The notes beneath the pieces were generated by a model. It saw only the letters and a program-made list of their open reading frames with translations, did not search any database and had not been told where the DNA came from. The translations under genes were made by a program, and so were the position numbers. 64,000 bases of DNA from NCBI RefSeq assembly GCF_037975245.1, contig NC_092577.1, positions 20,892,898 through 20,956,897 on the forward strand. The letters run 5' to 3'. This DNA is from Apostichopus japonicus. Taxonomy: Eukaryota > Echinodermata > Holothuroidea > Aspidochirotida > Stichopodidae. This document shows, in pieces, positions 10,479 to 61,367 of this stretch. Every line of letters starts with the position of its first letter. Position 1 is the stretch's first letter.

Positions 10479-13400
10479 TCAAAAACGTACAGAAGGACGA
10501 CCCGCACGCAGCGAAACGAAAAACCCCTCCCCAGCACACCAGCGTCCAAAAAAGGCAGCCCCAGATAAACGGCGAAAATCGCCTTCAATCTGAAGGCGAA
10601 TGTCAGACTTCACCGCCTCCAGGACTGCCTGCCAACTGGCAAATTTCCCCCTAAAAAAACAAATTACATCTATTCCGCCAAACATGTTTTTTTACAATAG
10701 AGCAAACAAAAATGATGCGGTGCAACACAGCTACCGAACAAACTGGAGGGTCTACCCCTTATAAAATAAAGCCCTGCCCTACCGACCATGAACGGTCTCC
10801 CTTAACACGGTCGGTCCAGGTCTGGAACCACTCCCATAAGTTTACTACAAAGTAACAATGCCAAAAAACATGAGCAGTACTCTCTAAGCTGTCACAGCCG
10901 GTCCTAGGGCACAGTCCATCACCCAATCGCCAATGATATCTTTTTAGGTTGGTCACCAAGGCACCGTGTGCAACTCTCCATGCAAGATCACGGAGCCTGC
11001 AACCATTCAGCCTCGAATGCACCGAACGCCATACTTCGGCAGAATGACGTCCCTGGACAAAAGTTGCATTCAAGGCCTTATCCCTCAACGAACTGTGAAC
11101 GAGGGCCGGCTGTGACAGGTCAATTCAATCAGAGCGGAGCAGATGACACGAACCACCCTGTTTGGAGTACTACTATGCGGTTCTCTGTTGCTAAACAGCG
11201 CCGGGACCCATCGACGCAGGTGCAAACCGCCCCAAAAACGTACAAAATATGACCAAGGCAACCCTGGGTCAGTTACCGCTACAAACAACTGCTTAAATAA
11301 GAAAAAGCTCAATTTACTTCCCAGATGAACCACCCCTAACTCACCCTTCTCCAGTTTTTGGTACATTACCGCCCTTTTGACAAGCTCTGTACCACCCGAC
11401 CAAATAAATGAAAATATCGCTCTCTCCAACCGCACCAGCACGCGACGCGGAATTGGATACACCGCGCCCGGGTACCACAAGATGGGCGAAACAAAACGAT
11501 TAATTACCGTGACTTTCCCTAGGATCGAAAGCCAGCGGGTGCCAAAGGCTTCGAGCCTGCTCTCAAATACCTCAGCCCTCTCGTTCCAGGTGACGTCACA
11601 AGGTGCATCGTAGCCGAACCATATACCATTAATGTTGATATTCTGATCCGACCACGACGCACCCAATGGTAAGTCTCTGTATCTCCAGCTACCAAGGCGA
11701 AGGCCCTTTGTCTTTTCCGGATTCAACTTCGCCCCGGTAGCTCTCTCAAAGATAGATAAATCCTGCGAGAGGGCACGAAAGGAGCCCAGACTCGAAACAA
11801 CACATGTCACGTCATCTGCATATTGAACGCATTTCACTTTGGCACCCCCTGGCACAACGAATGGAACAAGTTTCGAGTCCCTTTCCAAAAGACGAGAGAG
11901 GGACTCGCTAAACAAAACATAAAGTAATGGAGACAGAGGGCACCCCTGGCGCACCCCCCTCTCTACGTTAAAAACCTCCGAACAAAACCCATTTACGATA
12001 ACAGAACTGAAACTTTCTTGATACAAAACAGAAATCCATTTACGAAAAACCGGGTGCAACTGAAACGTCTCCAATACATTCATTCAAAAACCGCGATCCA
12101 CCATGTCAAAAGCCTTCTGCTGGTCCAGAGACACCAATGCACATGGCAGATCACGCTCAATAACAAAGTCGGTCAAGTCGCCGCATCAACCACAAGTTCT
12201 GCTGGATGCAATGACCCTTCACTGCACAAGTCTGGAGATCACCAACAAGATGCGGCATAGCCAGTGCAAGGCGGCTGCACAAAGCCTTAGCCAGCAACTT
12301 GTAGTCCACATTTAAGAAGGTGATCGGACGCTTGTTATGGGGATCCAAGGGGTCCCCAGACTTTGGCAGCAAAGTAATCATGCCCAGACCTTGACTTTGG
12401 TTTAACAGTCCGTTTTGGAGGGCGTCCTGTCCTCGAAGATGGCTCTGATGTCGGGTCCTATTATTGCCCAGAAGGTTCGGTAGAACTCCCTCGGAAGCCC
12501 GTCCGAACCCGGGGACTTGCCATTCTTCATCTTCGAAAGCGCCCTCCAAAGCTCAACAGTGGTTATTCCGCCCCCTAAAATATCATTGACATCGTGGGGA
12601 ACGGTTTTTGAGATTCCCCTCAATAAATCAGCCTGTGCAGACAATTCCACGCGTAAACAAACTCGAATAATACTCTTTATATACGCGGACAATGCCGTGA
12701 GGGTCACTGACCACGGTCCCATCGGTAGCGCGCACAGACGGGACGCGTCTGTCACCCGCCGATGAGCCAACGGACTGGTAAAACCTCAGTGAAGGGCGCT
12801 CCTCGGCTTCCACCGCTTCGACACGGGCCCTGACGCGGGCACCGTGGTACTTTTCATCGAGATAAGTCTGCAAAGCGATGACTGCCGAAGGGTCGCCAAA
12901 CTTCACCTCCGCGCACAGCTTGGAGAATTTTTCTCTTCGACGCCGTGCGCGGGTCACGCAATACTGAATTGCGTAGCGTTTGATGCGCAACTTGACATCA
13001 TCCCACCACTGGGATGTAGAAGCAAAGGCCGGCTTCAATGTTTGCCATCCTTTGTACCTGGGTCTCGAAACCCTGGCGGAACTCTGCCTCGCCAAGAATC
13101 CGACAGTTAAGCTTCCATAGGCCCCGCCCGATGGGGAAAATGGAAGGCAAAACAAAACGTGCTACTACAGTGTCATGGTCAGAGAGCGGACAGCTGAGCG
13201 TCTCGTAACCCGAAAATGTAAAACTTACGGGCGCATACACTCGATCTATCCTGGAGGCATCTTCTCCGTTAGGCCTCACCCACGTATACACCGTACTACA
13301 CGGGTGCATATGCCTCCAGACATCGGCTAAAAGGTGTGCCGAAGTGAATCTGTCCAATTCTGTGATCCCAGCGTCAGGACTAGCAGACACAGAAGCCCCG

Positions 13401-13846
13401 AGTCTGGGACACAGTTAAAGTCTCCGACCATGACACAATGGTGCACTACCAGGAACAAAGGAAGGCAGCGTGTTAAAAAATTCTCGTCTAGCAGAAGGCC
13501 GATTGGGAGCATACACATTGCAGAGGGAGATGTTACCCTGTGGATACTTGAAAAGAATGCAAACCAATCGGCCCTCGTGATCCGTCTCCACCCTAGTGGC
13601 ACAACCCGCCTGACGAGGTGACAGAAGGATGACAGTGCCACAGGATGAAGACGAACCAAACGAAGCATGCAGCCCACCACCCCACTCATAAGCCCATAGA
13701 GGGACATCTTCTTCCAAAATATGTGTTTCTTGCAGGCAAACGCAGTCGACCTCCATTGAAATACAATATTGGAAAATGCGACTGCGCTTGCGATGATCCC
13801 TCATGCCATTGACGTTCAAAGTGGCAACTGAAAATGTTTGGGCCAT
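10479..13846 (-). pseudogene. LINE ORF2: APE endonuclease and reverse transcriptase, frameshifted
   Basis: ORF2 nicks target DNA and copies the element RNA in place. It starts at the ATG at 13846 (MAQTFSVATLNVNGMR), 20 bases past the ORF1 stop. Endonuclease motifs follow in order: LNVNGMR, LQETHI, VYAPNRP, MVGDFNC and the SDHDTV histidine block (about 13200). The RT domain shows GKSPGSDGLPREFYR, LLNVDY-type, GVRQGCPLSPLLY and the catalytic QYADDVTC (about 11820). The C-terminal part has a cysteine/histidine cluster ending before the stop at 10479. Several frame changes (near 13410, 13020, 12640, 12410, 12160 and 11085) break it. The domain order and the LNVNG/QETH style fit the Tx1 group of the L1 superfamily. 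Confidence 0.8.
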
Positions 13847-13866
13847 GAGAGGGCAATGGGGCAAAA

Positions 13867-15012
13867 CTACGCCGACGACGATTCTGTAAGCTTCAAGCGC
13901 GCTCTAGACGACATATCGTCGTCCGAGTCGTCACTTGAGGCCGACCTTTTTAGAGAGGGTTCCCCCATCTCGTCGTACCAGCTCGTCCCAGTGGCACGTT
14001 TTGGCTCGACGATCACCGAGCCCCCGGAGTCGCTGTCAGACAGAGCCTCCGGAGACCCGATGACCACCGAGTCCCCGGAGTCGCCGTCGGACAGTCTCCG
14101 GATCTGGCGATACCGGCGGCGGACTGGGGACGGAACTGGACGAGTTGATAGGGGAAGCTGGTGGAGACTTTCTCGGTGCGGGCACGGGGTTGGGGTCTGC
14201 AACTACGGGGGGAGGGTGAACTAGGTGCATCCGGTTCCCCCTCATTGCGTGGAGTTTCCTCCGAGGCAGTAGGTGCGCCAGAACTTGGCGCCTTGAACTT
14301 GAAGCCAGAACTTGGCGCCAAGAACTTGGCGCCAGAACTTGGAACTTGGCGCCCACTCTTTGTCATAAAGACATAAGAGGAGGGACAAGCGCGAAAAACA
14401 TGCCCCTCCTTCCCACAGAGTGAGCACAACTTCGCTTGGGCAAGCAGAGGTATCATGCCCAAGACGAAGGCAGCGCCCACACTTTTTGTTTGGGCAGCCC
14501 TTGGCTTCGTGCCCGGTCTCCCCACACCTGAAGCAGGTACGGGGCTGACCGGGGTAACGCACGTGAGCTTTATGCCCGGCAATAAAAAGGAAGGAGGGAA
14601 TGTCCTTGAGGTCGATCCGAACCTCTCGGTGCCCGTTCAACACCCCAGGGGCCTGTGCGTAGGAGCACATTTTGATGGCCTTCACAGCCCCAAACCGACC
14701 TAAAACAGTTGCGACAAGTTCCTGACGCACCTCTAGTCCTACTTGGATGACAGTTACCCATACGGAACGCTCGTATGGAGTAACTGTCAAACCTTCAACC
14801 CCACTCAGCAACGTGACACCCTTCTGCCGGGTCACGTCACTTGTAAAACGTACATCATAAGTATTACGACCCTGGAGAGCTTGCAACGCATCAACCTCTC
14901 CAGGCACAACAACACCCTTACTCTTTAAAATACTAAAAACTTGCACCGGTGGAACCGCTTGTTCACCGGTGAAGGTTAACTTAACAATTTTGGAATCACG
15001 GCGCGATGCCAT
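13867..15012 (-). pseudogene. LINE ORF1: CCHC zinc-knuckle nucleic-acid-binding protein, frameshifted
   Basis: ORF1 begins at ATG 15012 (MASRRDSKIVKLTF) and stops at 13867. An RRM-like N-terminal half is followed by three zinc knuckles, CFRCGETGHEAKGC, CGRCLRLGHDTSAC and one that is broken by a frameshift (LCSLCGKEGHVFRAC in the neighbouring frame, about 14430-14390). The C-terminal hinge is rich in S, P and D. It would coat the element RNA. Between about 14280 and 14355 the hinge holds a minisatellite of the word TTGGCGCC that the sister copy at 56875 lacks. Two to three indels break the frame. Confidence 0.75.
14278..14355. repeat. TTGGCGCC minisatellite within ORF1
   Basis: Four TTGGCGCC words at 9-40 base spacing, often as AGAACTTGGCGCC. 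It lies inside the LINE ORF1 and is absent from the otherwise matching copy around 57540, so it expanded after the two copies separated. Confidence 0.7.
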
Positions 15013-15184
15013 GATACCGAAGGTGGCTGGGCCACAGAGGAGTAACAAAACAAACTAAAGATAGGTTGGATAAAATACAATATACGATGACTATATACGA
15101 TAACGATATACGAACTGGCGCACACCCGCCTGGCGGGAAGGAGGACTTGTTGTCTGGTATAGACAAGGTAAAAATGAGAGTAAA

Positions 15185-17580
15185 AATGATAGCTTGGGCT
15201 CGAATCTCTCCGTTGGTGAGCTCTGGACAGCGGTAGAAGCGATGAAGAAGGGAAAGTCCCCCGGTCCCGACGGCCTCCCGGCAGAGTTCTATAGGACCTT
15301 CTGGGAGGTCCTCGGTGGGGACTTGAGAGATGTGTTCGCTACCGCTTTCCAGTTGAATTACATGAGCCAAACACAGCGGGTTGCAAATATTGTTCTCCTC
15401 CCAAAGTCGAGAGACCCTTTGGACCCTACAAATAGGCGTCCAATAACGCTGTTAAATGTGGACTACAAAATCCTGGCCAAAGCATTAGGAAATCGCTTAT
15501 CGGACGTGATGCCGGATATTGTAGGTCCTCTCCAGACTTGTGCTGTGCGAGGCAAGTGTATTCAACATAACCTCTGGTTGATGAGAGACTTTCGTCGAGT
15601 TTGTTAAAGCTCGTGATTTGCCATGTGCACTGGTCTCATTGGACCTGGAAAAGGCCTTTGACATGGTAGATCACGACTTCCTGTTCGGATTGAACTTCGT
15701 ATATATTCGTTGGGTGTCGTTACTATATAAGGACGCCACGAGCATTGTCACTGTTAACGGATTAACTTCTGGTCCCTTCCCGGTTCGAAGAGGAGTCTGT
15801 CAGGGTTGTCCCCTCTCCCCGTTGTATGTTCTCTTCAGCGAAACGCTCAATACCTCGCTGGACAGATGCTTTGGATTTCGACCCTTCAACGTACCGGGTG
15901 GGGCTAGAGTTAAATGCGTGCAGTATGCCGATGACGTCACTTGTATTGCGTCGGACCTCGCCTCCTTCAAGCCTTTAATGGAAGGTTTTGACCACCTTCC
16001 AAGAGGCTACTGGTGCCAGACTGAACAAGTCCAAGAGCAAAGGGCTGCGATTTGGAGGTTGGCGCGGCCAATCCCTCCCGTTCGATGCTACTTGGTCAGA
16101 TGTAATGATCAAGGTAAATGGCATCTGGCTAGGTTATGGTGCCCCGGAGGCCACCACTTGGGCCGAGAAGGCTGATCAGGTGGAGGCAAGGCTCGACACA
16201 TTCAGTCACAGGTGGCTCTCCCTCCCTGGGAAGGTTACAGTTGTAAATAGGTTTATTGTTCCTCTCCTTTGGTATCCTGGTACGGTGATCGCCGCACCGG
16301 ATCATGCCTTGGTGCGACTGGAGAGGATCATTTTTAATTTCATTTGGGGAAAGCGCAAACCAAACCTGGTCAGAAGGACCGTTCTGTATAAGACCCCCAG
16401 TGGGCTTGGCTTGGTCCACCTACCATCTAAACTGCGCTTTCTCCTCTTGAAAGGTGTTTTTGTTGCTTTTGAAAATCCTTCGTTTCCCTTTGCTTTTTTT
16501 GTTAGGTACTGGGGTGGGTTTCTTTTTCGACACCACTGGCCCGGATCCTTTTCCAATAACCGGCCGAAGGCGACACGCCCTTCTGGGGTCTATACTCAGA
16601 TTGGTGACTCTCTTCGTAGAATCAAAGAAGAGGGTGGGCCACATGTTCTGCTGAACGTGGCCCCCTCTGTGTTATACCCAACATTGTTTCGTTCAATGCT
16701 CGCGCCTGTGTGCCCGTCGGCTTGCCGGACCGCCATCTCTCCGGATGTGTGGCGGTCTGTGTGTTGTAAGTCACTAGATAGCCGTCTCGGGGACTTGCGT
16801 GGAGGATTGCACATGGGGTCCTCATCACTAACCATTTTCGCCTAGTCAGGTGGCGATTAGGTGATGGGATTTGTCCCCGTGTGGGCTGTAAAGCCATCGA
16901 GACTATGCAACACCTTTTGCTGCAGTGTCCCTTTGTCCGGTTGGTGTGGGATTGGTTTCACGCCTTCGTTATTGGTGTTATTGGTTGCACACAGTGGGCC
17001 CATTAGTAGTGATTTTGTTTTGTATGGTTTGTTGCCCCCTGTGTGCCCAACCTGGGTGTTAGGGATCTGCTGTTGTTCTTTGCCGCTGTCATCAGGAGAC
17101 ACATCTGGAACAGCAGATGCCGCCTAGTTTTCGATGGGGACGTCTAGAGGGCAGAGGATGTCCCCCTCGTGCAAAGTGACATCAGGTTGCGCATGAAGGC
17201 GGACCATGCACGGCTTCCCGACACTGCCTTTCGTAGACGCTGGCGCAAGCCTGTCGTCTACTATCGGGACGGCGTTCCCCGGATGAAATTTGGAGTGAGT
17301 TACTTGGTAGGTGTGGGGGTTGTGTGGTCGTTACATAATATAGGTTGGTTTAATTTTCTCTTTGTGGTTTGTGGGTTTCTCTTTGTGGTTTGGCTTTTTG
17401 GGGCCTGTTTGTAGTGTTTTATTTCTTTTGCTTCTGTTGGCCTTTGGGTCCGTGTCCTTTTCGCGTCACGTTAAACGATGCGTTAGTGTGAGATTGATGG
17501 GTGTCAGTTGTTGTTTTACAGACTGGGTTTGTTTTTGGGTTTGTCGACCTTTGGTCCGTTTTTCTTAGCACGTAAAAAGC
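15185..17580 (+). mobile_element. Tx1/L1-like non-LTR retrotransposon, family 2, 5'-truncated
   Basis: Starts inside the RT domain and runs to the 3' terminus CACGTAAAAAGC at 17580. The 3' part (from about 17220) matches the 3' part of the element at 43908 (GACGGCGT..CCCCGGATGAA, the T/G-rich 3'UTR and CAGACTGGG near the end), which defines family 2. Protein similarity to family 1 is clear but nucleotide similarity is low. Upstream lies the 5' end of the minus-strand LINE, with GTAAAAATGA repeated at 15168 and 15181. Confidence 0.8.
15194..17150 (+). pseudogene. LINE ORF2 fragment: reverse transcriptase and C-terminus
   Basis: Reading starts without an initiation codon at ELWTAVEAMKKGKSPGPDGL, the RT finger motif. 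Then come LLNVDYKILAKALGNRL, SLDLEKAFDMVDHDF, RRGVCQGCPLSPLY, the active site QYADDVTC at about 15920, and the thumb region VNGIWLGYGA. Frame breaks occur at 15607, about 15990 and about 16845. The C-terminal Cys/His region (CGCKAIETMQHLLLQC-like, about 16900) survives in another frame. Endonuclease and ORF1 are missing, as in an ordinary 5'-truncated insertion. Confidence 0.8.
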
Positions 17581-18490: not shown

Positions 18491-18786
18491 AACAAATCCC
18501 TGGCTGTACGTACGCGTGTATATATGAGGCTTTTGTTTACAACTCCCTGGTTACCCGAAGTGGCCTTACCGAGGTGACGAACGTTGCCGAGTTATGCAAA
18601 CTACCCCTGCAGGCGATGTCCACCTGCTGTGCTGCAGTGACGGGTTTTATTTGTATGGCCTTGTCGGCAACTTCATCAGTTCAAATGGATTTGGAAGAAA
18701 GAACTCCATTCCATAACAACTCCCTGGTTAAACAAACCACCTGCGGCTGAAGAAACAAAGTCTACACATTGAAGAGTTAGTATGCC

Positions 18787-18818
18787 CATGGAGCTAAAAA
18801 CGAGAAGGAGAAAAAGCT
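18787..18818 (+). repeat. left terminal inverted repeat of P element
   Basis: Starts CATGGAGCTAAAAACGAG and pairs with 28209-28240 with one mismatch at base 11. It is preceded by GTATGCC. Confidence 0.92.
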
Positions 18819-18879
18819 GCTTGAGAACGCTCGTAAAATTCAATTATCCCGCCGCGAATCCTTTACCCAATCTCTGTAG

Positions 18880-20347
18880 GTTTTATGGTCCCCCCCCCCC
18901 CCCCCCGCTGTGAGCAGCTTCTTTGATCTTGCCTCATCATTTCCGCGATGTGTGGCAAATTTGATATAAACGACTGGTTCAGCAAGAATAGCCGTAGCTC
19001 GACCTACGTCGTTTGCAGGTCAAATGTTATGCGCAGTAGCGTCACAGAGCTTTGTTTACTACGAACCCGTTGCGCAGTTCTTCATATCGTGTCTATTTTC
19101 TTCCTAAAAAAAACCGCATTTTGATTGCTTTTTTCGTGTAAAAGTTAGAGCAATATTAGTCCTTTCCTGACGTGTGAAATTCATCAAAATCTTTGCAGAA
19201 TATTTTGCCTTTTTTGACATTTTTCCTGATCGCTCCTGACACCATCTTTCGAAGTAATTAACGAAGACGGTCCTATTCTTCAGTGTAGGATAGTCCACAA
19301 CACTGTCCAGGTTTGTACAATTTTACAAAATAACGCTAAAGTTGATAGGTTCAATCGCTTGTTGCAAAGTTTTATTGGCAACGAAAGTCCATTCACGGGT
19401 ATGTTGCCATGGATATTTCATACACTTTGAAATGAAATGGAATTATTTTGTTCTCTTTCTGAGGAAAATGAATAAAACTTAAAAGTTAAAAAAGCCTTTT
19501 GTAGTCGGCCCTAACGTTAGGCACAGAGCCTAGGCCCCTGCCATACAATTGTAATGGACCTGCAACATGGCCATCTTTAAATATTGAAAATTTATCTGAT
19601 ATATTTGCTAATGATATTAAGAATGAATGTTGTTGTTGAAATGTTTTATTTGCTTTTGTATGAGGGTTGCTCTGGGGGTTCTCTGTCCATGAAAATTTTT
19701 TCAATTTTTAGGCCTAGGCCTTAGGCCTTAATGTTTGATTCTGGTTGTCCCAACCCATGAAAATTGCACCTCTTTTTTTTTTTTGGTTGCCAACCCATGA
19801 AATGGCTGGCGATTAAATTGTTTGAACACAAAAAGTTATTCACCAATGCTGAAAAGATATGTTTTAGGCCTAGGCCTATAGTTGTTTATTTCTACGGCAA
19901 TAGTTTAAAACTTCAATCGCCATATGAGACATTAAGTATTAATTCGCTGGTGACCAAACTCAATCAGTTCTATACTTTACATTGCCAACAAAGAATTCTT
20001 CGTGGCCAACCATGGAGACCGCAGTTGTCCAGGGTTGCCCAGACTGCATAGTTTGTTTCTCGCAGGGAAAGATCTGCTGTTACATTTTAATAGATGCACT
20101 TTTAAATTGGAGTAATATTGGCACTAGGCCTCTACTGTACACAGTTTTGTTACAAAATGGAATTACCAGTTAAAATGGAGTCACTTCTTTTGTTAAAAGC
20201 TTTTTGTGGAATCTTCAAGGTACAGAAGAAACATAATTTTTGGTGTCGGCCTATATTTCCATTTTAGCTCCATGATTACATGGAGGGATTTATTATTAAA
20301 GAAAAAACTGACCTTTAATCAATAGTTTGTCCTCTATTTCTTTTCAG
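18880..20347. other. 5' region of P element, presumed promoter and untranslated exon
   Basis: Contains a run of 17 C near 18890 and TAGGCCTA-rich sequence. The coding exon of the transposase is preceded by an acceptor (CTATTTCTTTTCAG, AG at 20346-20347) only two bases before ATG 20350, so an untranslated upstream exon should lie in this stretch. It could not be placed. Confidence 0.4.
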
Positions 20348-20349
20348 AT

Positions 20350-23300
20350 ATGGCGAGCATTCACATGCAAGCTTTACAAAAATTATGCAGATTATGTGGG
20401 AGTGCCAAGGCAATTCCTGGGGACAGGCCACCAAAAAGCAAATTGGACTTTCATATATGGACCTTAAAAGCACTCAGTATTGACTTTAAATATGACATTG
20501 AAGGTGTACATCCTGAGTTTATTTGTACCTGTTGCATCTTGAAGCTTCAAAGATGGAAGAAAAAGGACAACAAAAAACAGAAATGTGCATTAAATATTTC
20601 TGTTGCCACTTATCAACCCCACAGCAATTTGTGTACTTTATGTCCACCAGATGATCGTAGTACTGCAACGAAAGAAACTGAACTTCAGAATTTGATTTTG
20701 GAGAATTGCAAGGATTATAGACTTGTGTCTTGGATGAATGGGGATTCTTGTTTTCTCGCTCAAATAAACACTAATGGCACTGCCATTATGAAACGAGTTT
20801 GTGTTGGAAGAGACGGCAGGTGGACATTTCATGTAAAGGAGAAGGTTATAGTGAGGCAAGATATTGTTGATTTAGGTTTTAAGATTCTTGACCTATTATC
20901 AACTGAGGAAGATGTCCATAGTTTGTTGAAATGTACTAAGGATATGGATATATGTTTTGGAAATAGTGACATCTTCGGTTCCACAGAATATTCAGAACTC
21001 CGAAAAGGTTTTCCTGTGGAAGAATTTTTTTTCATGGATGGGACCAAGGGACAAACCCTTCGGCATAGCAGTTGCAGATTCATTGCACATGTGAACAAAA
21101 GATGTGAGTTATGCTCACAATATCGATGCAACTTATTTGCAAAACGTTCCCAAATGCGGGCTCTGAAAAAGACAGATATTTCCCTTTCATCTCATCAGCG
21201 CAATGATTTAATGTCAAGTGGAGACAAAGACAAGAAATTCAAATTGATGAAAGAAAGGTGCACCAACTTGACTCAAGAAAACGCCATTCTACGTCAGCAA
21301 GTTAATAGCATGTTCGTTAAGGAAGCACTCAGCATTGAGAAAGATGAAGGAGAGGTTTTGAAAGAAATTTTTGTTGGTGAAGAAAACTCATTCAAGACAT
21401 TGCTAAAGCAAGGAAGCCCACAGGAGCTGCTTTGGCAGCAGCAGAAAGAGAATCTGCAAAATCCACCTAGTCGCTGGCGTTGGCACCCAGACATAATAAA
21501 ATGGTGTGTTGCCTTACATTCAAAGTCACCAGCTGCATACAACTTAATCAGGCAGAGTGGCTTTTTAACATTACCAAGTCTAGTGACATTGAATAAACAT
21601 ATACATTTCACAAAGGCCAAAGTTGGAATCAACGCAGATATAGTCAAGCGTGTAGCAGAAGAAATCAATGCCCAAACAGGAGACATCAACCAAAATGTTA
21701 CTTTGATTCTTGACGAGATGAAGATTAAGTCTGGATTAGCCTACTCGTGTTCTTCAGGTAAAATAATAGGGTTTTGTGATACAGGGGAAATCAATAACTT
21801 ATTAAGTGATTTTGGAAGACGGGTGCAAGGAGAAGATGACACCAAGAGTACACCTCTGGCAACACATGTGTTGGTTGTTATGGTGCGGACAATTTTTTCA
21901 AATACCAAAGCCCCAATTGCATACTTTGCTACAGGGGATCTGAAAGGTAATGATTTATATCCCATTGTGTGGGACTGCATAAGGCACTTGGAGTTCTTTG
22001 GTATTCATGTTCGGGCAATTGTAGCGGACGGTGCATCACAGAACAAGAAATTCTTCAAGCTTCATGAAAAGCACACAACGGATGCCTTGACTTATTTCAC
22101 CAACAACCCTTACAGGAGTGGGGAACGGATATATTTCTTCTGTGATGTGCCCCATCTCTTGAAAACAACCAGGAATAATTGGGAGAACTCTGGCTATAAT
22201 TCACGATCAAGAAATCTTAGGGTATGTACTATATGTACAGTACTCATGGAGCTATAAACGAGAGCTCCATGATCTACTGATTATTTTGAGTTATTCTTTA
22301 TTTCTTTCATAATTTTCTGTTCTAAAAACTGATTCTTGAAGACATTCAGTGTTAATTGCAATATATTCATTATTGTTTATTTACTGTAGATGTGATGTGC
22401 AAATTTGCTGACAATGCGGGAATATCCAAATTTCTTTCCATTGCTTCATAAGCTTGCACTGTGTTTTGGTGTCATTATTCAAACCGGTTTCACGAAACCA
22501 ACGTTTCAGTTGGATTCATAATTTACTAAATACTGAAAAACCGCAAGTACCAAAAATAATCAAATGTTTACTATGTTAGCCTATGTTGCACCTACATGTC
22601 CATAGCACTTTATGTATGATTTTTATTTATTTATCGCTTTTTCTTTCTTTACATTTTGCAGTTCAAAGGAAAAGAAATCCGTTGGACACATTTGCTGTCT
22701 CTACAGGAATGGGACCAACAGCTCAATGCGCCGTCACCTGGTCTTCGTTTTGTTCATAAACTGACGTACGAACACTTGAATCTGACACCATCATTGCGAA
22801 TGCGAGTGTACCTAGCAGCACAGGTATTCTACTTGTACTGATTTCACCTTTAGTATTTATTTTTTTTTTTAAATTCAACATCAGCAGTATTTAATGTTTT
22901 TTGTTATATAGCTCTATGTTAACCTAGTCCAGTCTGCTGTTATTGAGAATAAATGATATTTGATTTATTGACTCTGATCAGTAATACAGGGGGATAAAAC
23001 TGCTGCAAATCTACAGTTTAAAAACTGTGACAGGACCAAAATGATATGTAAGTCTATTCGACACAAATGTATACTACTTTTACTGTCCAGTAAAGATTTG
23101 TTAAGATGTTTAGAGCAGGGTTTTAATGTTGACCAGGACTACACAATTTTGTGCCTGCATTTGACACTTTGTTTGCAGTTGTCAAACTGAAAAGTCTATC
23201 ACCTACAGTATCTAGGGAAAGTACAGCTTAATTAAAGTTTGGTTATGTTCTTTTCTTGCTTCTTGCAGGTTCTCAGTAAAACTGTGGCTAATGCACTTGA

Positions 23301-24911
23301 GTCCATGGGGAAACCTGAACTTTCATCAACCATACTGTTCATCCGTACAATAAATGACTGGTTTGACTGCCTCAACGTTGCCAACACCAAACAACATTTT
23401 CAAGGAAGGAATGCTAATCTTGCACCATACAAATCGGTCGATGATGAGAGGTTCAAGGTATGTCCGGAATTGTCTTCATCAGTAATTTGGAGTAAAAAGT
23501 AACAAGTGTTGCTAATTTACCTGTTATATAGCAGTGAGTGCAATACAGACATTGCATGTTGGATAATAAAAGTTCAGATCTACCTACTGTACCCACTGGG
23601 CTAATATTGCACAACCTTAATTTTTTATATGCTCGAGATGTCTGGGCTGACTATGTTACAAGTACTTGCTTAAAGCTTATCTAATCTTCAAATGGAAGGA
23701 TTTGGATTTGGCTGGAGTGCTCATAATGACAATGGAAGTTATTTTCATTTTGATTTTTCTTCTTTTTTTACTAGTGGTTGGAGAATAATTTTTTAGGATT
23801 TCTGGATGAATGGTACGCTGAATCACAGAGTGCAGAAGATGTGCCGAAGAAAGACAGATACAAGCTTTTTATCAGCAGAGAAACTTACTCTGGAATGCAT
23901 ATAACAGGTAACATATTGTATTGTCGCTATGGGAACTAATAATACCATAGCAAAATTATCTGGCAAAAAAGTCATTTTGAAAACGAGCATAATAACTAGA
24001 GGTATATTGGCAGCTAGGTGGCATTGTTGGTCTAGGAAATGGAGACGACCAAAATATAAAATATCAAATTCCTAAAAAGTAAACAAGTAAATTGGTTGGG
24101 AATCAAATTAAAAACCTATCCATGTCTGGAATTCCACTTGCAATCAAATGACCTCCATCAGAGAGGGGTCATTGTATTCAGTAGCATAGCCAGGGGCCAT
24201 CGCCCCCCCCCCCCCCCCGCAATGAGATTCTTTTCCCCCAGACGGAACGCATGTTACATACAAATTGTACATAAGTATATTGACACTCAACAAATTTGCC
24301 CCCCAGCAAACAAATTTTGCCCCCCAAATTTGCAATCCTGGCTATGCCAATGATTGTTTTTGTCACCATTTCAAATATTTTACCTGTGGTATAGTACCCT
24401 TACTGAGTGCCTCGAGAGAGACATGGATTGAAACGTGTCTTCCTGGAAGTATGGAGTTTATAAAGAAAGGCATGTTGATTAATACATGTATTTCTTGTAA
24501 AGGAAAAAAGAGGGACAGCTTTTTGCATGGAAGAGCCCCTTGGTTCAGAAGAACTTCAGTGAATATGGACTTCCATGTGGATGCTTCATCAGTCATAATT
24601 TTGCACTCGTGTTTTTTACCAACGTGTTTATGTCTGCTTTATTTTCTTTCATTTCAGTGAAATCATTTGTCAGTCTAGCAAAGGAGCTCCTACAAAATCC
24701 ATCTGTGGAGTATGTTTTAAGTGAGAAATTTTCACAGGATCCTTTGGAAGAATATTTTTCGAAGCAAAGAGGTTGTGGAGGAAGGAATGACAATCCATCT
24801 GTTCAGCAAGTTGGACACAACATGTTATCTCTGATGGTTGCAGGGAGCAGAGCTGTTAGTTCGCTGAGGAGCAATTGCCGCAAGAGACCAAGAGAAGATG
24901 AAGATATATAA
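20350..24911 (+). CDS. P-element (THAP9-type) transposase, five exons, intact
   Basis: Exons 20350-22221, 22662-22823, 23269-23457, 23775-23907 and 24658-24911 have GT..AG borders and compatible phases. They total 2610 bases, 869 codons plus stop, with no interruption. The N-terminus is not a THAP domain. It has CRLCG...ICTCC (residues about 14-60), like an insect ZAD-type C2-C2 module, and a second cysteine cluster, CELCSQYRCN (about 255-264). A leucine-rich coiled coil follows (about 300-320), then the RNase-H-like core: LILDEMKIKSGLAY (first Asp), GDLKGNDLYPIVWDC, AIVADGASQNKKF, and FFCDVPHLLKTTRNNW, as in THAP9 and P transposases. The end carries DPLEEYFSKQRGCGGRNDNP, a family signature. 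It should act in the nucleus, cutting and joining the 32-bp ends. Intron 4 holds a small palindromic insertion. Confidence 0.92.
22245..22271. repeat. internal inverted copy of the P-element end motif
   Basis: The element tip CATGGAGCTATAAACGAG (18 bases) occurs here, 23 bases after the exon 1 donor, and is closed by AGCTCCATG, so the two ends of the motif face each other. TAGCTCCATG also occurs at 20265-20274 (with CATGGAG at 20279-20285) and at 27332-27341. Confidence 0.8.
24182..24349. mobile_element. miniature inverted-repeat insertion in transposase intron 4
   Basis: TAGCATAGCCAGG at 24182-24194 is inverted as CCTGGCTATGCCA at 24337-24349. Between them are C-rich and CCCCCCAAATTTG-type tracts. 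It is about 168 bp, non-coding, and resembles abundant short GGCGTAGCCAGG-type elements of marine invertebrates. It sits wholly within the intron and leaves the transposase frame untouched. Confidence 0.6.
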
Positions 24912-25282
24912 CTCAAATTAAAAATTAATCACCTTCTATTTAATAATTCGAACAGTTGTTTCAAAAATGTTTAAGGCAAGGTATAACATACAATTTATAT
25001 GACAATGTGTTGCTCGTCTGTCCATGCACGTTTTTCTTATGAAAATATGGACAACTTTTAATCAAATATATAAAAACTTTGAATGAATTTGTCCCTGTGA
25101 TGTCACTTTTGACCTTTGACCAGCCATTTGCAGGCCATTCTCTCTGAGTTTCAAACTTGCATAACTTCTTGTAGTAATATGTTATCAGATTTTTGTACCA
25201 GTTTGTGTTATAAATTTTTCTCTATCATATACAATGTTTCAAAAATCCATGGTTCCTTTAATATTAGCAAATTTTACCCAAG

Positions 25283-28021
25283 CTACTTGTCTTGATTTGC
25301 CAATGTCTTCCTTAATGCCTTTTCTCCTTTTTTACCTGCTTTCTTGTTGTTACGCTTCCTTACTTCCATATACATTCTCACAAAAGCGTTAACCCTTAAT
25401 TTTACCCAATACCCGACAAATAGCTTCAGAAGATCCTGTTTTACTTTAACATCCAGTTCTGTTGTTACCAGCTCATCCCAGCGTTTTTGTACTTGATTAT
25501 GTGTATTTAAGACATTCAAGAGTTCACTCTTAATATTAACATCCTTCAATACCATCAATCTCTTCACATTCAGTACTTTCTTAGTATGGAATTCAAGAGT
25601 TTTGAAAAATAAATAAGTCAGGTTATTGACCACAAACAATCCACCCCTATTTTGTTTGTTAATCCATTGTTTGGTGTAGTTATAAAATGAAGTTCCTTCA
25701 GCAGAAGCCGACTCGACTGACAGAGATTTTACAAAATCCAGAACGGAATTGTCCAAATTCTTTTGTCTCAACAGTCTGCGCTTTAAAGCAAAAGGGATAT
25801 AACCTGCAACGTACCGAATAATCTGCTCTTCATGCTGACTTATAGGAAAAACTGTGTCAATGTCATCTTTCATGGGCATATCATATTTCTGCTGCTCTGC
25901 AATTATTAATTTCATTAGAAATTCCAATATATGTTGCAACATGAATAGTTGAGCAGAACTTAGGGCTATCGTTAAAAGATTTATTCGCGATAAGAGTTCC
26001 TTCCAAACTTTCAGTACTTGGGGATCCAGGCGTAAATTGTGGAACCGATTCCACATTCTCCCACGATCACTGCTGGTTATTGGTCTCTTGTTATCAGGAT
26101 AAATAACATCCCAGAGCTGCTGTACAATAAATTTGGAGAATTCTTTCAGAGGAACACTGCCATTTTCCAGAAGCTGCTTTGCTAGTGTCTGAAGCTCTAC
26201 AGACAAGCCAGAGTCCATGCAGTATAGTGAGTCTGTAAAAAAAAATATTTAAGCACTGGAGTATGAACACTACAGACATATCCAGGGCATATTGTACCGT
26301 GTACACCTGTGGACACTTTGGAGCCGTTTCTGTGAAAAAGATAAAGAAAATTTTAGAAAGGAAAAATGTTTTTTTGTTCAAGATCATAGATCATAGGGGT
26401 ACAAGCTTGGGGAGGGGGGGGGGGGGGAGGCTACAGCCTCTGACTTGGAAAAATGAGGTGAGCCAGGCAAAAATGGTTGATATAGTAAGGGAAAACAAAT
26501 GTCAACATATACGGCATAAATAAAGAGGTCATTGATAAAAAATTTAGTATCATGTCAAGCAAAAAAACGTGCAAAAAGAATATTAAGTTGGGGGAACAGC
26601 AAAAAAATATTAAGTCTGGTCAAATATTATAGCCTCCCTAATTTAAATGGATTTGTAGGCCCCATAGTTGGAGTAAACCTGCAAGCAGATTTAGTGGATC
26701 AGCAAGAAAAGAGAAGTGAAGTTATATTCTGTAGGCCTGTATTTTGAGTTCTTTTACAAGCTCTTGCCTTCGTTTCATTTGTGTGCTTCCCTTTCTTTGC
26801 CATAAGGAAGTGCAATGTGGTATTTCAGTCTTCAATTCAGTTTTTGCAAAATAAGTGAACATTTCTGTAAAAAAGTCACAGGGTGCAAGTATTGAAAGAA
26901 TGATTGAGGAATATATTGACAGGGTGGGCCATACGAACAAGCCAATCCAGGGGACTGCAATAAGAAGAGATTCAACATTTTACTCAACCAAAAGTAAAAA
27001 GCAACAACAGAAGTTTCTTACCTTTTGTTTTGTTTCCTTGGGTTGTTTTCTGTTTCCTATCGTCCTTTCTTGAAGCAGATTGCCCTGGGGTCTGATCTTC
27101 ACCTGGAACGGAAAGCATAGAAAAATAAAATGTTAACATTCACAAGGTTTGCAATTTGCATAATGTTTAACAAGGCCTGTGCTACAGCTCTTCGTGGGGG
27201 CAGTCTATTCTGTCAGGAATAGTTTTTGTAATATGTCGAGGAAAAGGAAAAATGTTGGCCTAAAACATGAAATTGTTTTGTATGGTTTTTTTTCAAACAA
27301 TGGGTTAGGTTAAAAAGGATTAATGAATGAATAGCTCCATGATCTGCACAAGTATATAAGAAAACTGAAATGCACAACAATGTTGAAACTCAAATGAATT
27401 AGTATACTGTAATTTGTAAACAAGGATAAACTGAACAGTGAATGTTATTAATAACAAAACATTAACAGAAAAATAACATGCATCGAGGAAAACTAACTAA
27501 TTAATTGTTTTTAAGATATGAAGCTATGTTTCCAATGGTTTAATATAAACCAGCAGAAATTTCACAAGAAATCAAATCAAGTTAGTTTGCTTTCGAATTT
27601 TGATCTTTTTATATGTATGGAAATGGAACTGTTCAACTTAAAACTTGGAACAAACTTAAACGGCACCATCATTCGTCTCAGTTTTATCAATCATTTTCAT
27701 TTAACCATTCTGAGCAGATTATAGCTCATGGCTCACAGAACTGAAACAAAACACTTACATGCATCATGTTCGTCGGCGTACATTTGCTCCTGACAATTTT
27801 CGCAGAACCACTCTTCGGTGTCTGCATCAGTATCGGTAAGACCCGAACAACCGACATAAAAACAATTCAGTTTCACAACTCATCCCGGCGCAGTTAACTA
27901 AATCGTCCAGTAGTTCGTTGCCACAAAAACAAACTTTCCCAATTTCAGTTTCTTCGCTTTCAAAATCAAGTTCTAAATCAACATTTAAGTTTTCGCTTGT
28001 AGTACTAGAAGTAGACGCCAT
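25283..28021 (-). CDS. accessory PHD-finger protein of the P element, three exons
   Basis: Exon 1 runs from ATG 28021 to 27759 (an in-frame ATG at 28072 would add 17 residues), exon 2 is 27102-27022 and exon 3 is 26232-25283. All borders are GT..AG and all joins are in phase 1. Exon 1 begins acidic, then gives an ING-like PHD finger: VCFCGNELLDDLVNC, then CFYVGCSGL and EEWFCENCQ. Near 27868-27876 one extra base shifts the frame within the finger, and the position usually held by His is Tyr in the restored frame. Exon 2 is short and lysine-rich. Exon 3 encodes about 310 residues I do not recognise: hydrophilic, helix-rich, with a very basic end (NNKKAGKKGEKALRKTLANQ). It converges tail to tail with the transposase, 370 bp apart. 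A chromatin-reading or targeting role is inference. Confidence 0.72.
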
Positions 28022-28160
28022 TTTTGATTGTCGATACTTATGACGCGTTTTACGTATTTGACCTTCGACCATCGAGCTGTGTGACGAACTTTGTTATTGC
28101 AATTACGTAATAGGTGCGGAAAGAGCGGCTCGTGTCGTGTCCTCGAGCATGTTATTTCTA

Positions 28161-28176
28161 GACAGTATATACTGTC
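28161..28176. promoter_or_regulatory. perfect 16-bp palindrome near right end of P element
   Basis: GACAGTATATACTGTC is its own reverse complement. It lies 33 bp inside the right terminal repeat, upstream of the PHD gene start, where P elements carry subterminal transposase-binding or internal inverted sites. No identical copy is seen near the left end. Confidence 0.5.
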
Positions 28177-28208
28177 GGAAAGGATGATACTTCAAAGGAG
28201 GACTAAGG

Positions 28209-28240
28209 AGCTTTTTCTCCTTCTCGTTTATAGCTCCATG
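28209..28240 (-). repeat. right terminal inverted repeat of P element
   Basis: Read on minus it starts CATGGAGCTATAAACGAG. It is followed on plus by GTATGCC, the repeat of the left flank. Confidence 0.92.
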
Positions 28241-28321
28241 GTATGCCCCAATAATTGAGGCCGGTATGAAGTCATTGAAAATTGGCTCTTTAGCATTTCA
28301 ACTGGTTTGCATTGTTTACAG

Positions 28322-28543
28322 GGGTCATTGTGGCCAGTGTGCAGCTGTGATGCCTACAGCTGTAGATGCTGCAGGGAAATAGAAAAAGTAAGGAATGTGA
28401 TGGATGAAGAAGGTGCTGCATGTATCACCTTACACCCAGGTTTTGAAGCTGTTTGCCTGAACCCATGGGTGCAACAGACAGCCTACTGCGTGTACCGTCA
28501 ACAGCATGGTGGCCGTGCACAGGAAAATAGCATCCACGAGTAA
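28322..28543 (+). pseudogene. P2RX7-type cytoplasmic (ballast-like) domain exon, truncated
   Basis: After an acceptor (TTGTTTACAG) the exon shows CRCCREIEKV, then ACITLHPGFEAVCLNPWVQQ and TAYCVYRQQHG, ending with a stop at 28543. This is the zinc-binding C-terminal domain known from the P2X7 receptor tail and from many invertebrate multi-copy proteins. The expected upstream piece (CGQC, then MPT) is present at 28325-28360 in a different frame, so one indel separates the halves. The usual last part (TAYR-x-x-VRW) is missing. There is no receptor channel part nearby. It starts 80 bp right of the P element end. Confidence 0.65.
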
Positions 28544-56667: not shown

Positions 56668-56874
56668 CGTGGAGTGCGGACGTGTTTTTCGCTCTCGCTC
56701 TTCATCTGTTACAGCTGTTATTGTACTGTGCTGTGCTATACTTCCCGCCAGGTGGGTGTGATAGCTTGTGTTCGTGTGTTTTCCCCAGTTCGTATATCGT
56801 TTGTTGTTTCACTATCCTGTCTTTAGTTTGTTTGTTTTTTGTTACTCCCCTGTGGCCTAGCCACCTTCGGTATC

Positions 56875-57963
56875 ATGGCATCGCGCCGTGATTCTCGGAT
56901 TGTTAAGTTGTCCTTCACCCGGTGAACAAGCGGTTCCACCGGTGCAAGTTTTTAGTATTTTGAAGAGCAAGGGTGTTGTTGTGCCTGGAGAGGTTGATGC
57001 TTTGCAAGCTCTCCAGGGTCGTAATACGTACGATTTACGTTTTACCAGTGACGTGGCCCGTCAGAAAGGTGTCACGTTGCTGAGTAACGTCGAGGGGATG
57101 ACAGTTACTCCATACGAGCGATCCGTATGGGTAACTATCATCCACGTAGGACTAGAGGTGCGGCAGGAACTTGTAACGGTTTTGGGTCGGTTCGGGGCTG
57201 TCAAGGCTGCCAAAATGTGCTCCTATGCAAGCCCCTGGGGTGTTGAACGGGCACCGACAGGTTCGGATCGACCTGAAACAGGACATTCCCTCCTTCCTGT
57301 TTATAGCAGGGCATAAAGCCCACGTGCGGTATCCCGGTCAGCCCCGTACCTGCTTCAGGTGTGGGGAGACCGGGCACGAAGCCAAGGGCTGGCCAAACAA
57401 GAAATGTGGGCGCTGCCTTCGTCTTGGGCATGATAGCACCGCTTGCCCAAACGAGGTTGTGTGCTCACTATGTGGGAAGGGGGGGACATGTCTTTCGAGC
57501 TTGTCCCTCCTCTTATGTCTCTAGGACTAAGAGTGGGGGTAAGTCAAATTCCGACGCACCTACTACTTCACGAGAGGAGGGGGAATCTGGTGGGATTTTA
57601 CCCTCCCCCGCACCTGGTTTACCCTCCCCAGTCGTTGCAGACCCCAACCCCGTGCCCGCACCGAGAAAGTCTCCACCAGCTTCCCCCATCAACTCGTCCA
57701 GTTCCGTCCCCAGTCCGCCGCCGGTATCGCCAGATCCGGAGGCTTTGTCTGACGGAGAATCGGTGGTCATCGATTCTCCGTAGGCTCTGTCTGACAGCGA
57801 CTCCGGTGAATCGGTGATCGGCGAGCCGAAACGTGCCACTGGGACGAGCTGGTACGACGAAATGGGGGAACCCTCTCTTAAAAGGTCGGCCTCAAGTGAC
57901 GACTCGGACGACGATATGTCGTCTAGGGCGCGCTTGAAGCTTACGGAATCGTCGTCTTCGTAG
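56875..57963 (+). pseudogene. LINE ORF1 (family 1), frameshifted
   Basis: MASRRDSRIVKLSFT then an extra C at about 56919 shifts the frame (the sister copy reads FTGEQAVPP without a break). Another break is near 57225, where the frame re-enters before CFRCGETGHEAKGW, CGRCLRLGHDSTAC and CSLCGKGGT. The second ligand set has lost a Cys (GHEAKGW instead of GC). The hinge is Pro/Ser-rich, the tail acidic (DDSDDDMSSRA type), and the stop is at 57961-57963. Confidence 0.8.
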
Positions 57964-57983
57964 TTTTGCCCCACTGCCCTCTC

Positions 57984-60900
57984 ATGGCCCATACACTTTC
58001 AGTTGCCACTTTGAACGTGAATGGCATGAGGGATCATCGCAAGCGCAGTCGCATTTTCCAATATTGTAAATCAATGGAGGTCGACTGCGTTTGCCTGCAA
58101 GAAACACATATTTTCGAAGAAGATGTCCCTCTATGGGCTTATGAGTGGGGTGGTGAGCTGCATGCTTCGTTTGGTTCGTCTTCATCCTGTGGCACTGTCA
58201 TCCTTCTGTCACCTCGTCAGGCGGGTTGTGCCACTAGGGTGGAGACGGATCACGAGGGCCGATTGGTTTGCATTCTTTTCAAGTATCCACAGGGTAACAT
58301 CGCCATTTGCAATGTGTATGCTCCCAATCGGCCTTCTGCTAGACGAGATTTTTTTAACACGCTGCCTTCCTTTGTTCCTGGTAGTGCGCCGTGTGTCATG
58401 GTCGGAGACTTTAACTGTGTCCCAGACTCTGGTCTTGACAGACTCGGAACTTCTGTGTCTGCTAGTCCTGACGCTGGAATCACAGAGCTGGACAGATTTA
58501 CTTCGGCACACCTTTTGGCCGATGTATGGAGGCATATGCACCCGTGTAGTACGGGGTATACGTGGGTGAGGCCTAACGGAGAAGATGCCTCCAGGATAGA
58601 TCGGGTGTATGCGCCCATGAGTTTTAAATTTTCGGGTTGCGAGACGCTCAGCTGTCCGCTCTCTGACCATGACACTGTAGTAGCACGTTTTGTTTTGCCT
58701 TCCGTTTTCCCGATCGGGCGGGGCCTATGGAAGCTTAACTGTCGGATTCTTGGCGAGGCAGAGTTCCGCCAAGGTTTCGAGACCAGGTACAAAGGATGGC
58801 AAACATTGAAGCCGGCCTTTGCCTCTACATCCCAGTGGTGGGATGATGTCAAGTTGCGCATCAAACGCTACGCAATTCAGTATTGCGTGACCCGCGCACG
58901 GCGTCGAAGAGAAAGATTCTCGAAGCTGTGCGCGGAGGTCAGGTTTGGCGACTCTTCGGCTGTCATCGCTTTGCAGACATATCTAGATGAAACGTACCAC
59001 GGTGCCCGCGTCAGGGCCCGTGTCGAAGCGGTGGAAGCAGAGGAGCGCCCATCACTGAGGTTTTATCAGTCCGTAAGCTCATCGGCGGGTGACCGACGCG
59101 TCCCATCTGTGCGCGCTACTGATGGGACCGTGGTTAGTGACCCTCACGACATTGTCCGCGTATATAAAGATTATTATTCGAGTTTGTTTACGCGTGGCAA
59201 TGTCGACTTGTCGGCACAGGCCGATTTGTTGCGGGGAATGTTAAAAACCGTTCCCCACGATGTAAATGATATTTTGGGGGGCGGAATAACCACTGTTGAG
59301 CTTTGGAAGGCGCTTTCGAAGATGAAGAATGGCAAGTCCCCGGGTTTGGACGGGCTTCCGAGGGAGTTCTACCGGGCCTTCTGGGCAATGATAGGACCCG
59401 ATATCAGAGCCGTCTTCGAAGACGCCTTCCAAAACGGACTGTTAAACCAAAGTCAACGTCTGGGCATGATTACTTTGCTGCCCAAGTCTGGGGACCCCTT
59501 GAATCCTCACAACAAGCGTCCGATCACCTTGTTAAATGTGGACTACAAGTTGCTGGCCAAGGCTTTGTGCAACCGCCTTGCACTGGCTATGCCGCATCTT
59601 GTGGGTGACCTCCAGACTTGTGCAGTGAAGGGTCATTGCATCCAGCAGAACTTGTGGTTGATGCGCGACTTGACCGAATTTGTTATTGAGCGTGATCTGC
59701 CATGTGCATTGGTGTCTCTTGACCAGCAGAAGGCCTTTGACATGGTGGATCGCGGTTTTTTAATGAAGGTTTTGGAGACGTTTAAGATGCATCCAAATTT
59801 TCGTAAATGGATTTCTGTTTTGTATCAGGAAAGTGTCAGTTCTGTAATCGTAAATGGGTTTTGTTCGGAGGTTTTTGACGTAGAGAGGGGGGTGCGCCAA
59901 GGGTGCCCTCTGTCTCCATTACTTTGTTTTGTTTAGCGAGTCGCTCTCTCGTCTTTTGGAAAGGGACTCCAGACTTGCCCCATTCGTTGTGCCAGGGGGT
60001 GCCAAAGTGAAATGTATTCAATATGCTGATGACGTCACGTGTGTAGTTTCGAGTCTGGGCTCTTTTCATGCCCTCTCGCAGGATTTATCTATCTTTCAGA
60101 GAGCTACCGGGGCGAAGTTGAATCCGGGAAAGACAAAGGGCCTTCGTCTTGGTAGCTGGAGATACAGAGATTTACCATTCGGCGTGGTCGGATCAGAATA
60201 TCAAAATTAATGGTATATGGTTCGGCTACGATGCACCTTGTGATGTCACCTGGAACGAGAGGGCTGAGGTATTTCAGAGCAGGCTCGAAACTTTTGGCAC
60301 CCGCTGGCTTTCGATCTTGGGGAAAGTCACCGTTATTAATCGTTTTGTTTCGCCAATCTTGTGGTACCCGGGCGCGGTGTACCCAATTCCGCGTCGCGTC
60401 CTGGTGCGGTTGGAGAGAGCGATATTTTCATTCATTTGGTCGGGTGGTACAGAGCTTGTCAAGAGGGCGGTATTGTACCAAAAACTGGAGAAGGGGGGGA
60501 CTAGGGGTGGTTCATCTGGGAAGTAAAATAACCTCTTTGTTACTTAAACAATTGTTTGTAGCGGTGACTGACCCAGGGTTGCCTTGTTCATATTTTGTAC
60601 GTTTTTGGGGCGGATTGCACCTGCGTCGATGGGTCCCGGCGCTGTTTAGCAACAGAGAACCGCATAGTAGTACTCCAAACAGGGTGGTGCGTGTCATTTG
60701 CTCCGCTCTGATTGAGTTGCCCCCTGTTGACCTGTCACAGCCGGCCCTCGTTCACAGTTCGTTGCGGGATAGGGCCTTGAATGCAATTTTTGTACAGGGA
60801 CGTCATTCTGCCGAAGTATGGCGTTCGGTGCATTCGAGGCTGAATGGTTGCAGGCTCCGTGATCTTGCATGGAGAATTGCACACGGTGCCTTGGTGACCA

Positions 60901-61367
60901 ACCTTAAAGGGTATCATTGGCGATTGGGTGATGGACTGTGCCCAAGGATCGGTCACAGCTTAGAGAGTACCGCTCATGTTTTTTGGCATTGTTGCTTTGT
61001 ATTAAACTTATGGGAGTGGTTCCAGACCTGGACCGACCGTGTTACGGGAGACCGTTCATGGTCGGTAGGACAGGGCTTTATATTATATGGGGTAGACCCT
61101 CCAGTTTGTTCGATTGCTGTATTGCATCGCATTATTTTTGTTTGCTCTATTGTGAAGAAACATGTTTGGCGGAATAGATGCGATGTGGTTTTTAGGGGGA
61201 AGGTTGCCAGTTGGCAGGCAGTCCTAGAGGCGGTGAAGTCGGACATTCGCCTTCAGATTGAAGGCGATTTTCGCCGTTTATCTGGGGCTGCCTTTTTTGG
61301 ACGCTGGTGTGGTGGGGAAGGATTTTTCGTTTCGCTGCGTGCGGGTCGTCCTTTTGTAGCTTTTTGA
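57984..61367 (+). pseudogene. LINE ORF2: endonuclease and reverse transcriptase, few frameshifts
   Basis: Open without interruption for 650 codons from MAHTLSVATLNVNGMR. APE endonuclease motifs LQETHI, VYAPNRP, MVGDFNC, RIDRVYAP and SDHDTV are complete. The RT fingers and palm follow: GKSPGLDGLPREFYR, LLNVDYKLLAKAL, SLDQQKAFDMVD and GVRQGCPLSPLL. A two-base deletion at about 59930 (compare the copy on minus, which keeps PLLYVLFSESLSRL) breaks the frame just before QYADDVTC (60031). Further breaks occur near 60180 and 60500. The C-terminal Cys/His cluster (CPRIGHS..HVFWHC) and the stop at 61367 are in the last frame. Confidence 0.85.

Follow-up and report, generated by a model that had tools for sequence, protein, structure and literature searches.

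The element and its ends

Positions 20,892,898 to 20,956,897 of contig NC_092577.1 (assembly GCF_037975245.1) from the sea cucumber Apostichopus japonicus, a stretch of 64 000 nucleotides referred to here as the window and numbered from its first letter, contain a transposable element of 9454 bp at 18787–28240. The element as a whole, which was assigned no strand, is delimited by terminal inverted repeats (TIRs) and a target-site duplication (TSD), and holds two genes that face each other, one for a P-type catalytic protein on the plus strand and one for a PHD-finger protein on the minus strand. A preliminary description of this DNA had recognised a P-type transposon with a second, opposite-strand PHD gene. 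That outline holds; what it had missed is that the third exon of the second gene encodes a predicted C-terminal domain (CTD) of P transposase, that the transposase itself has a RAG1-type N-terminus, and that the PHD exon is frameshifted in this copy.

Reading of both ends bore out inverted repeats of 32 bp with one mismatch (18787–18818 on the plus strand and 28209–28240 on the minus strand). They are flanked by GTATGCC on the left (18780–18786) and on the right (28241–28247), which settles a duplication previously given as 7–8 bp at exactly 7 bp and disposes of the longer figure. The TSD was exactly 7 bp in 12 of the 12 element copies of which both ends were read; copies C8 and C2 were left out of this count, since only one end of each lay within the stretch read. 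The full-size copies C17:16.77 and C16:29.99 and nine internally deleted relatives were found to have TIRs of their own and exact 7-bp TSDs. The element thus has the flanking duplication and the TIRs by which the P element superfamily is recognised, the latter being 32 bp long here and near 31 bp in fly P.

Sequence related to the TIRs also occurs inside such elements. In intron 1 of the transposase gene, positions 22245–22271 read CATGGAGCTATAAACGAGAGCTCCATG, that is TIR bases 1–18 in direct orientation followed by TIR bases 1–9 inverted; the flanking bases show no duplication, and the sequence resembles what an excision would leave behind, or a minimal pair of ends. All 10 of the 10 second-lineage copies of which both ends were read (L010, L012, L013, L015, L017, L021, L024, L027, L028 and L030) have, about 280 bp in from one end, a further and inverted match to the beginning of the TIR (CATGGAGCTAGAAAACAGA and variants), possibly a site bound by the transposase.

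The catalytic gene

The plus-strand gene has five exons and four introns, all bordered by GT..AG, and no inner stop, in agreement with the uninterrupted spliced transposase of 869 codons described earlier. Exon 1 (20350–22221) encodes a RAG1-type N-terminal zinc domain (residues ~10–110), a helix-turn-helix (HTH)-like region and the first part of RNase H. Exons 2 (22662–22823, in the region of the GTP-binding insertion), 3 (23269–23457) and 4 (23775–23907) are placed by the splice model, and exon 5 (24658–24911) encodes the last part of RNase H (DPLEEYF), a basic tail and the stop, with no CTD after it.

Pfam scans identified RAG1_imp_bd (E 1.4e-9) and TNP-like_RNaseH_N (E 2.9e-27) in exon 1 and TNP-like_RNaseH_C (E 2.5e-7) in exon 5, and the N-terminal domain (alignment A4) matched RAG1 chains at E 1.4e-11. 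TNP-like_GBD was found in the homologue P0029 and stands in the precomputed annotation of P0028, a protein labelled Apostichopus japonicus that is 99% identical to the window transposase in alignment A2. A P-type RNase H domain with a GTP-binding insertion is the combination that defines the P element superfamily. The P-type HTH model PF12017 matched exon 1 weakly (E 0.01, below the cut-off), and the P0029 model from residue 344 on aligns to 6p5a from residue 128 on. No THAP model was returned by the Pfam scans of window exon 1 or P0029. A CTD within the catalytic gene was considered and rejected, as none was found in the spliced window protein, in P0029 or in P0030, the protein ending after RNase H.

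The second gene and its PHD finger

The minus-strand gene comprises exon 1 (27759–28021), for an acidic N-terminus and an ING-like PHD finger, exon 2 (27022–27102), for a basic linker with the same residues in P0003, and exon 3 (25283–26232), for a helical region, the predicted P-transposase CTD and a basic KKGEKALRKTL tail, the acceptor of exon 3 being not certain. The GT..AG borders of the three-exon convergent gene (28021–27759, 27102–27022 and 26232–25283) were as first described. Its exon phases, said to fit perfectly, do not: a shift of one base near 27860/27861 leaves the second half of the PHD finger in another frame than the first, and the finger no longer has its WFH part. As P0003 (BSL78_28222, A. 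japonicus) reads the same stretch in one frame, as CETEWFHVGC, it is the window copy, or its assembly, that has lost the PHD finger, and this copy itself probably makes no working one. P0003 is 98% identical to the window over a third of exon 3; the exon 2/3 junction is uncertain, because that of its gene model, a prediction, differs from the one given here.

The ING-like nature claimed for the finger of the first exon was upheld on a sister copy. The finger of C17:16.771 matched 23 PDB sequences at E values up to 0.01 (best E 1.9e-9), and the best 20 of the 23 are named ING, YNG, PHO23 or png2, which we take to be ING-type proteins. Scores with the Pfam PHD model were 20.9 bits for P0003, 20.7 for C17:16.771 and 25.4 for C16:30.004 (cut-off 24). 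WFH stands at the equivalent position in C17:16.771, C16:30.004 and C3:19.638; the last zinc pair is altered in C16:30.004 (FCDNY), and C17:17.781 has a stop in place of the W. Aspartate and glutamate account for 8 of the 30 residues before the finger in the window, 8 of 22 in C17:16.771 and 11 of 28 in C16. Patiria P0007 has AWFH in a finger fused to the same CTD family. In amphioxus P0011 and P0013, which have a long N-terminus, an acidic N-terminus and a weakly scored C2H2 finger, with no PHD, precede the same CTD family. Since these proteins have a C2H2 finger where others have a PHD, the N-terminal module of the CTD subunit may be exchangeable.

Identity of the last exon

On model comparison, the last exon of the second gene is the C-terminal domain missing from the transposase. 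Residues 134–300 of the exon 3 model (~25349–25849) matched 6p5a_B, the P-transposase CTD, by structure comparison (VIA-align), with the target fully covered and a clear gap to the next-best row. The hhalign sequence match of the exon 3 family (alignment A1) to the P CTD was reached by none of 300 shuffles. The assignment was made from these two comparisons; neither a Foldseek search with exon 3 nor a PDB sequence search with alignment A1 had a P transposase among its matches. The family has a conserved basic KKGEKxLRK tail. No relatives were found in a scan of viral contigs with alignment A1 or of genome contigs with alignment A3. If exon 3 is the CTD that the catalytic protein lacks, the element encodes one transposase in two parts, and is not simply a P element to which a chromatin gene has been added.

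Recurrence of the facing pair in the genome

The 671.6-Mb assembly (35 contigs) was searched with window exon 1 (624 codons), which gave 59 matches in 36 clusters; 15 of these, each covering at least 300 codons, were taken as long copies. For the CTD the best 100 candidates were scored, and the counts and absences given here refer to these. A facing CTD match lay downstream on the other strand, 3.1–10.3 kb from exon 1, at 8 of the 15 long copies (C17 16.778, 17.766, 20.913, which is the window, 21.102, 23.631 and 25.074 Mb; C3 19.629; C16 29.993), compared with a chance expectation of 0.00065 per cluster for a CTD within 15 kb (58 CTD loci from 85 matches). The transposases of the paired copies are down to 36% identical to that of the window. 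The facing CTD gene is present in all 4 of the long copies whose exon 1 has no stop. Some of the 58 CTD loci were read; many of the CTD matches contain stops and score equally, the pattern of an abundant family whose members have lost internal sequence but retained the CTD end.

Two observations had been named in advance as telling against the preliminary description, namely long copies lacking the second gene and a host gene captured in one copy only. The former was made in part: 7 of the 15 long copies have no CTD match, all with 4–13 stops in the matched pieces, compared with 0–5 in the 8 that keep the facing gene. A decayed CTD could have been missed at these seven, as only the best 100 candidates were scored; at one of them, C20:4.579, a PHD match lies 6 kb away in facing orientation. 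The latter was not made, the pair being present at eight places in copies as diverged as those above.

The other 21 clusters fall into three kinds. Fourteen match the catalytic part only (first residue at least 348), none with a facing CTD, and behave as expected of ordinary P-like elements. Six are remnants of residues 1–43 from internally deleted copies, each with a facing CTD remnant, and one is a short N-terminal piece without a facing CTD. The PHD query (E up to 10) gave 12 matches, 9 of them (8 loci) alongside such elements or a CTD remnant and 3 elsewhere; six of the eight loci belong to the eight pairs, with the PHD 1.3–2.0 kb upstream of the CTD. At C17:23.63 and C3:19.63, whose transposases are 36–37% identical to that of the window, the matched transposase exon 1, CTD and PHD pieces have no stop. 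Their near-equal scores suggest that these two copies may be close to each other.

Selection and decay

Comparison of the window with C17:16.77 gave 230/163/378 differences (codon positions 1/2/3) in exon 1, 16/7/50 in exon 5, and 59/37/79 and 37/25/66 in the two CTD parts, so that third positions are in excess in all four. Pairwise dN/dS ratios of about 0.2 for the same two copies (LWL85 0.22 for exon 1, YN00 0.23 for CTD part 2) are rough, synonymous change being saturated (NG86 dS undefined). Ratios for CTD part 1 and the PHD, and position counts for the PHD, were out of frame and have been disregarded. The C17:16.77 copy is damaged too, because its CTD has a 2-base deletion, common to the internally deleted copies, and its PHD frame fails to join the upstream ATG. 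The CTD of the internally deleted copies shows no sign of selection, with stops and indels shared. In nine copies that were read, transposase residues 1–42 adjoin residues 837–867; at C9:14.50 the same two pieces are 6 kb apart, and at C2:4.61 no transposase piece was found.

Neighbouring sequence

A Pfam scan of the open reading frame to the right of the element (28259–28543) found nothing. Open reading frames with reverse-transcriptase-like stretches (RQGCPLSPLLYVLFSE and similar) occupy 11088–16842 and 56861–61364 of the window; judged by these motifs only, they are apparently non-LTR retrotransposon copies.

A probable split transposase and its possible mode of action

The computations support the domain content of both genes, a catalytic subunit without a CTD, and a facing pair that recurs in diverged copies. 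We put at about two in three the probability that this is a two-gene P-superfamily transposon, its transposase split and encoded as two facing genes. Subunit 1, from the plus strand, would supply the RAG1-type zinc domain, the HTH-like region and an RNase H of P type, into which the GTP-binding domain is inserted. Subunit 2, facing it, would supply the acidic segment, the ING-like PHD finger, the helical region and the CTD with its basic tail, and would enter the transpososome in trans, substituting for a CTD in cis.

Published work is drawn on here and below from excerpts of the papers cited. In fly P, the CTD follows a flexible linker and lies between RNase H and the GTP domain of the other subunit, with a basic helix toward the target DNA and a last 17 residues that are basic and not resolved in the structure (PMC7776569). 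In RAG, the PHD finger and acidic hinge of RAG2 block target DNA and inhibit transposition, and a long H3K4me3 peptide raised transposition 22-fold (PMC11844651, a preprint). From the location of the fly CTD and the behaviour of the RAG2 PHD and hinge we propose that the finger on subunit 2 would sit where target DNA is captured and could make this step conditional on nucleosomes methylated at H3K4, whether through tethering, through release from autoinhibition as reported for RAG2, or through both; the acidic segment is a possible inhibitory element. Steering of integration by the PHD protein, an idea of the preliminary description, is a fair guess. The full analogy, a P-type counterpart of RAG1/RAG2 whose target-contacting domain has moved to a PHD-bearing subunit and in which H3K4 methylation would gate the capture of targets, is offered tentatively, with chances somewhat short of even.

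Of the other explanations, the one that survives best, though we consider it unlikely, is that subunit 2 is a regulator, either a copy of the CTD that competes with or inhibits the transposase, or a protein whose PHD finger works against silencing. In flies, truncated forms of the P transposase act as repressors (PMC7776569), and the inhibitory RAG2 PHD and hinge (PMC11844651) have a parallel in the acidic N-terminus of the second gene. A free CTD, however, has nothing to compete with where the catalytic protein has none of its own, and the second gene is retained by every long copy with a stop-free exon 1. It is improbable that the exon 3 match is one of generic helical bundles and the second product an unrelated accessory protein: the matched target, fully covered and well separated from the next row, comes from the superfamily of the element itself, the partner protein is without a CTD, and shuffled sequences did not reach the score. 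ING-like PHD fingers occur in host proteins, but capture or chance insertion of a host PHD gene in one copy can be set aside as stated, because the pair recurs in diverged copies, with the facing CTD gene at eight and a PHD match beside it at six, and exon 3 matches a P-transposase domain and not a host domain.

No report of a RAG1 N-terminal domain on a P-type transposase was found among the open-access matches listed, outside which most subscription papers lie, and none of a P-type element with a facing PHD gene or a split transposase among the open-access titles and abstract beginnings listed. Repbase Reports, to our knowledge, lies outside the literature covered. If the split-transposase reading is true, one gene of a eukaryotic DDE transposase would encode the catalytic subunit and another the target-binding subunit, the latter joined to a chromatin reader. 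Such an element would be a natural system for testing how chromatin is chosen by transposases, and would give a family of so far unnamed proteins from echinoderms and amphioxus a likely identity.

Comparison with known systems

Like Drosophila P and zebrafish Pdre2/THAP9, the element encodes a P-type RNase H with a GTP-binding insertion and, by model, a CTD of the same fold; its TIRs are close in length to the 31 bp of fly P, and it likewise has internally deleted relatives. In contrast to canonical P and THAP9, a RAG1-type zinc domain (RAG1_imp_bd) takes the place of the THAP domain, and the CTD lies on a separate facing gene with a PHD instead of on the same polypeptide. The TSD is 7 bp (12 of 12 copies with both ends), whereas that of canonical P is 8 bp (PMC7776569, PMC10983969). 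Thus the element belongs to the P superfamily by its catalytic core and is not a canonical P element by its N-terminal domain, the placement of its CTD and the length of its TSD. For another sea cucumber, Holothuria glaberrima, the excerpted part of a 2026 preprint (PMC13228809) describes THAP9-like genes that encode a P transposase domain, and nothing of this kind.

The RAG1 N-terminal (Chapa) zinc region has been reported on transposons (PMC4411706, PMC8355894), and the element shares it with Chapaev transposons and Aplysia N-RAG-TP; Chapaev is named there, in the excerpts, as another superfamily, and the core of the present element is P-type.

With RAG1L-RAG2L elements (ProtoRAG/TransibSU) it shares a convergent gene pair, a catalytic subunit whose N-terminal zinc region is of RAG1 type, and a PHD partner; the excerpts describe the two genes as convergent, with a PHD finger on the partner in most species (PMC7204232), and the sea urchin pair as head-to-head (PMC4411706). 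The catalytic core, however, is P-type and not of the Transib/RAG1 type, the partner combines the PHD with a helical P CTD and has no kelch model in Pfam scans, the PHD is on the N-terminal and not the C-terminal side of the partner, and the TSD is 7 bp as opposed to 5 bp. The element therefore resembles RAG in its layout and is not a RAG transposon. RAG has two accessory modules, the zinc domain at the N-terminus of RAG1 and a PHD partner encoded by a convergent gene, and both co-occur here on a non-RAG core. Either this two-gene arrangement arose on two occasions or, a bolder alternative that we hold to be very unlikely, the RAG transposon acquired the two modules from such an element. If the reading is true, this element would provide an independent case for judging why RAG has a PHD partner.
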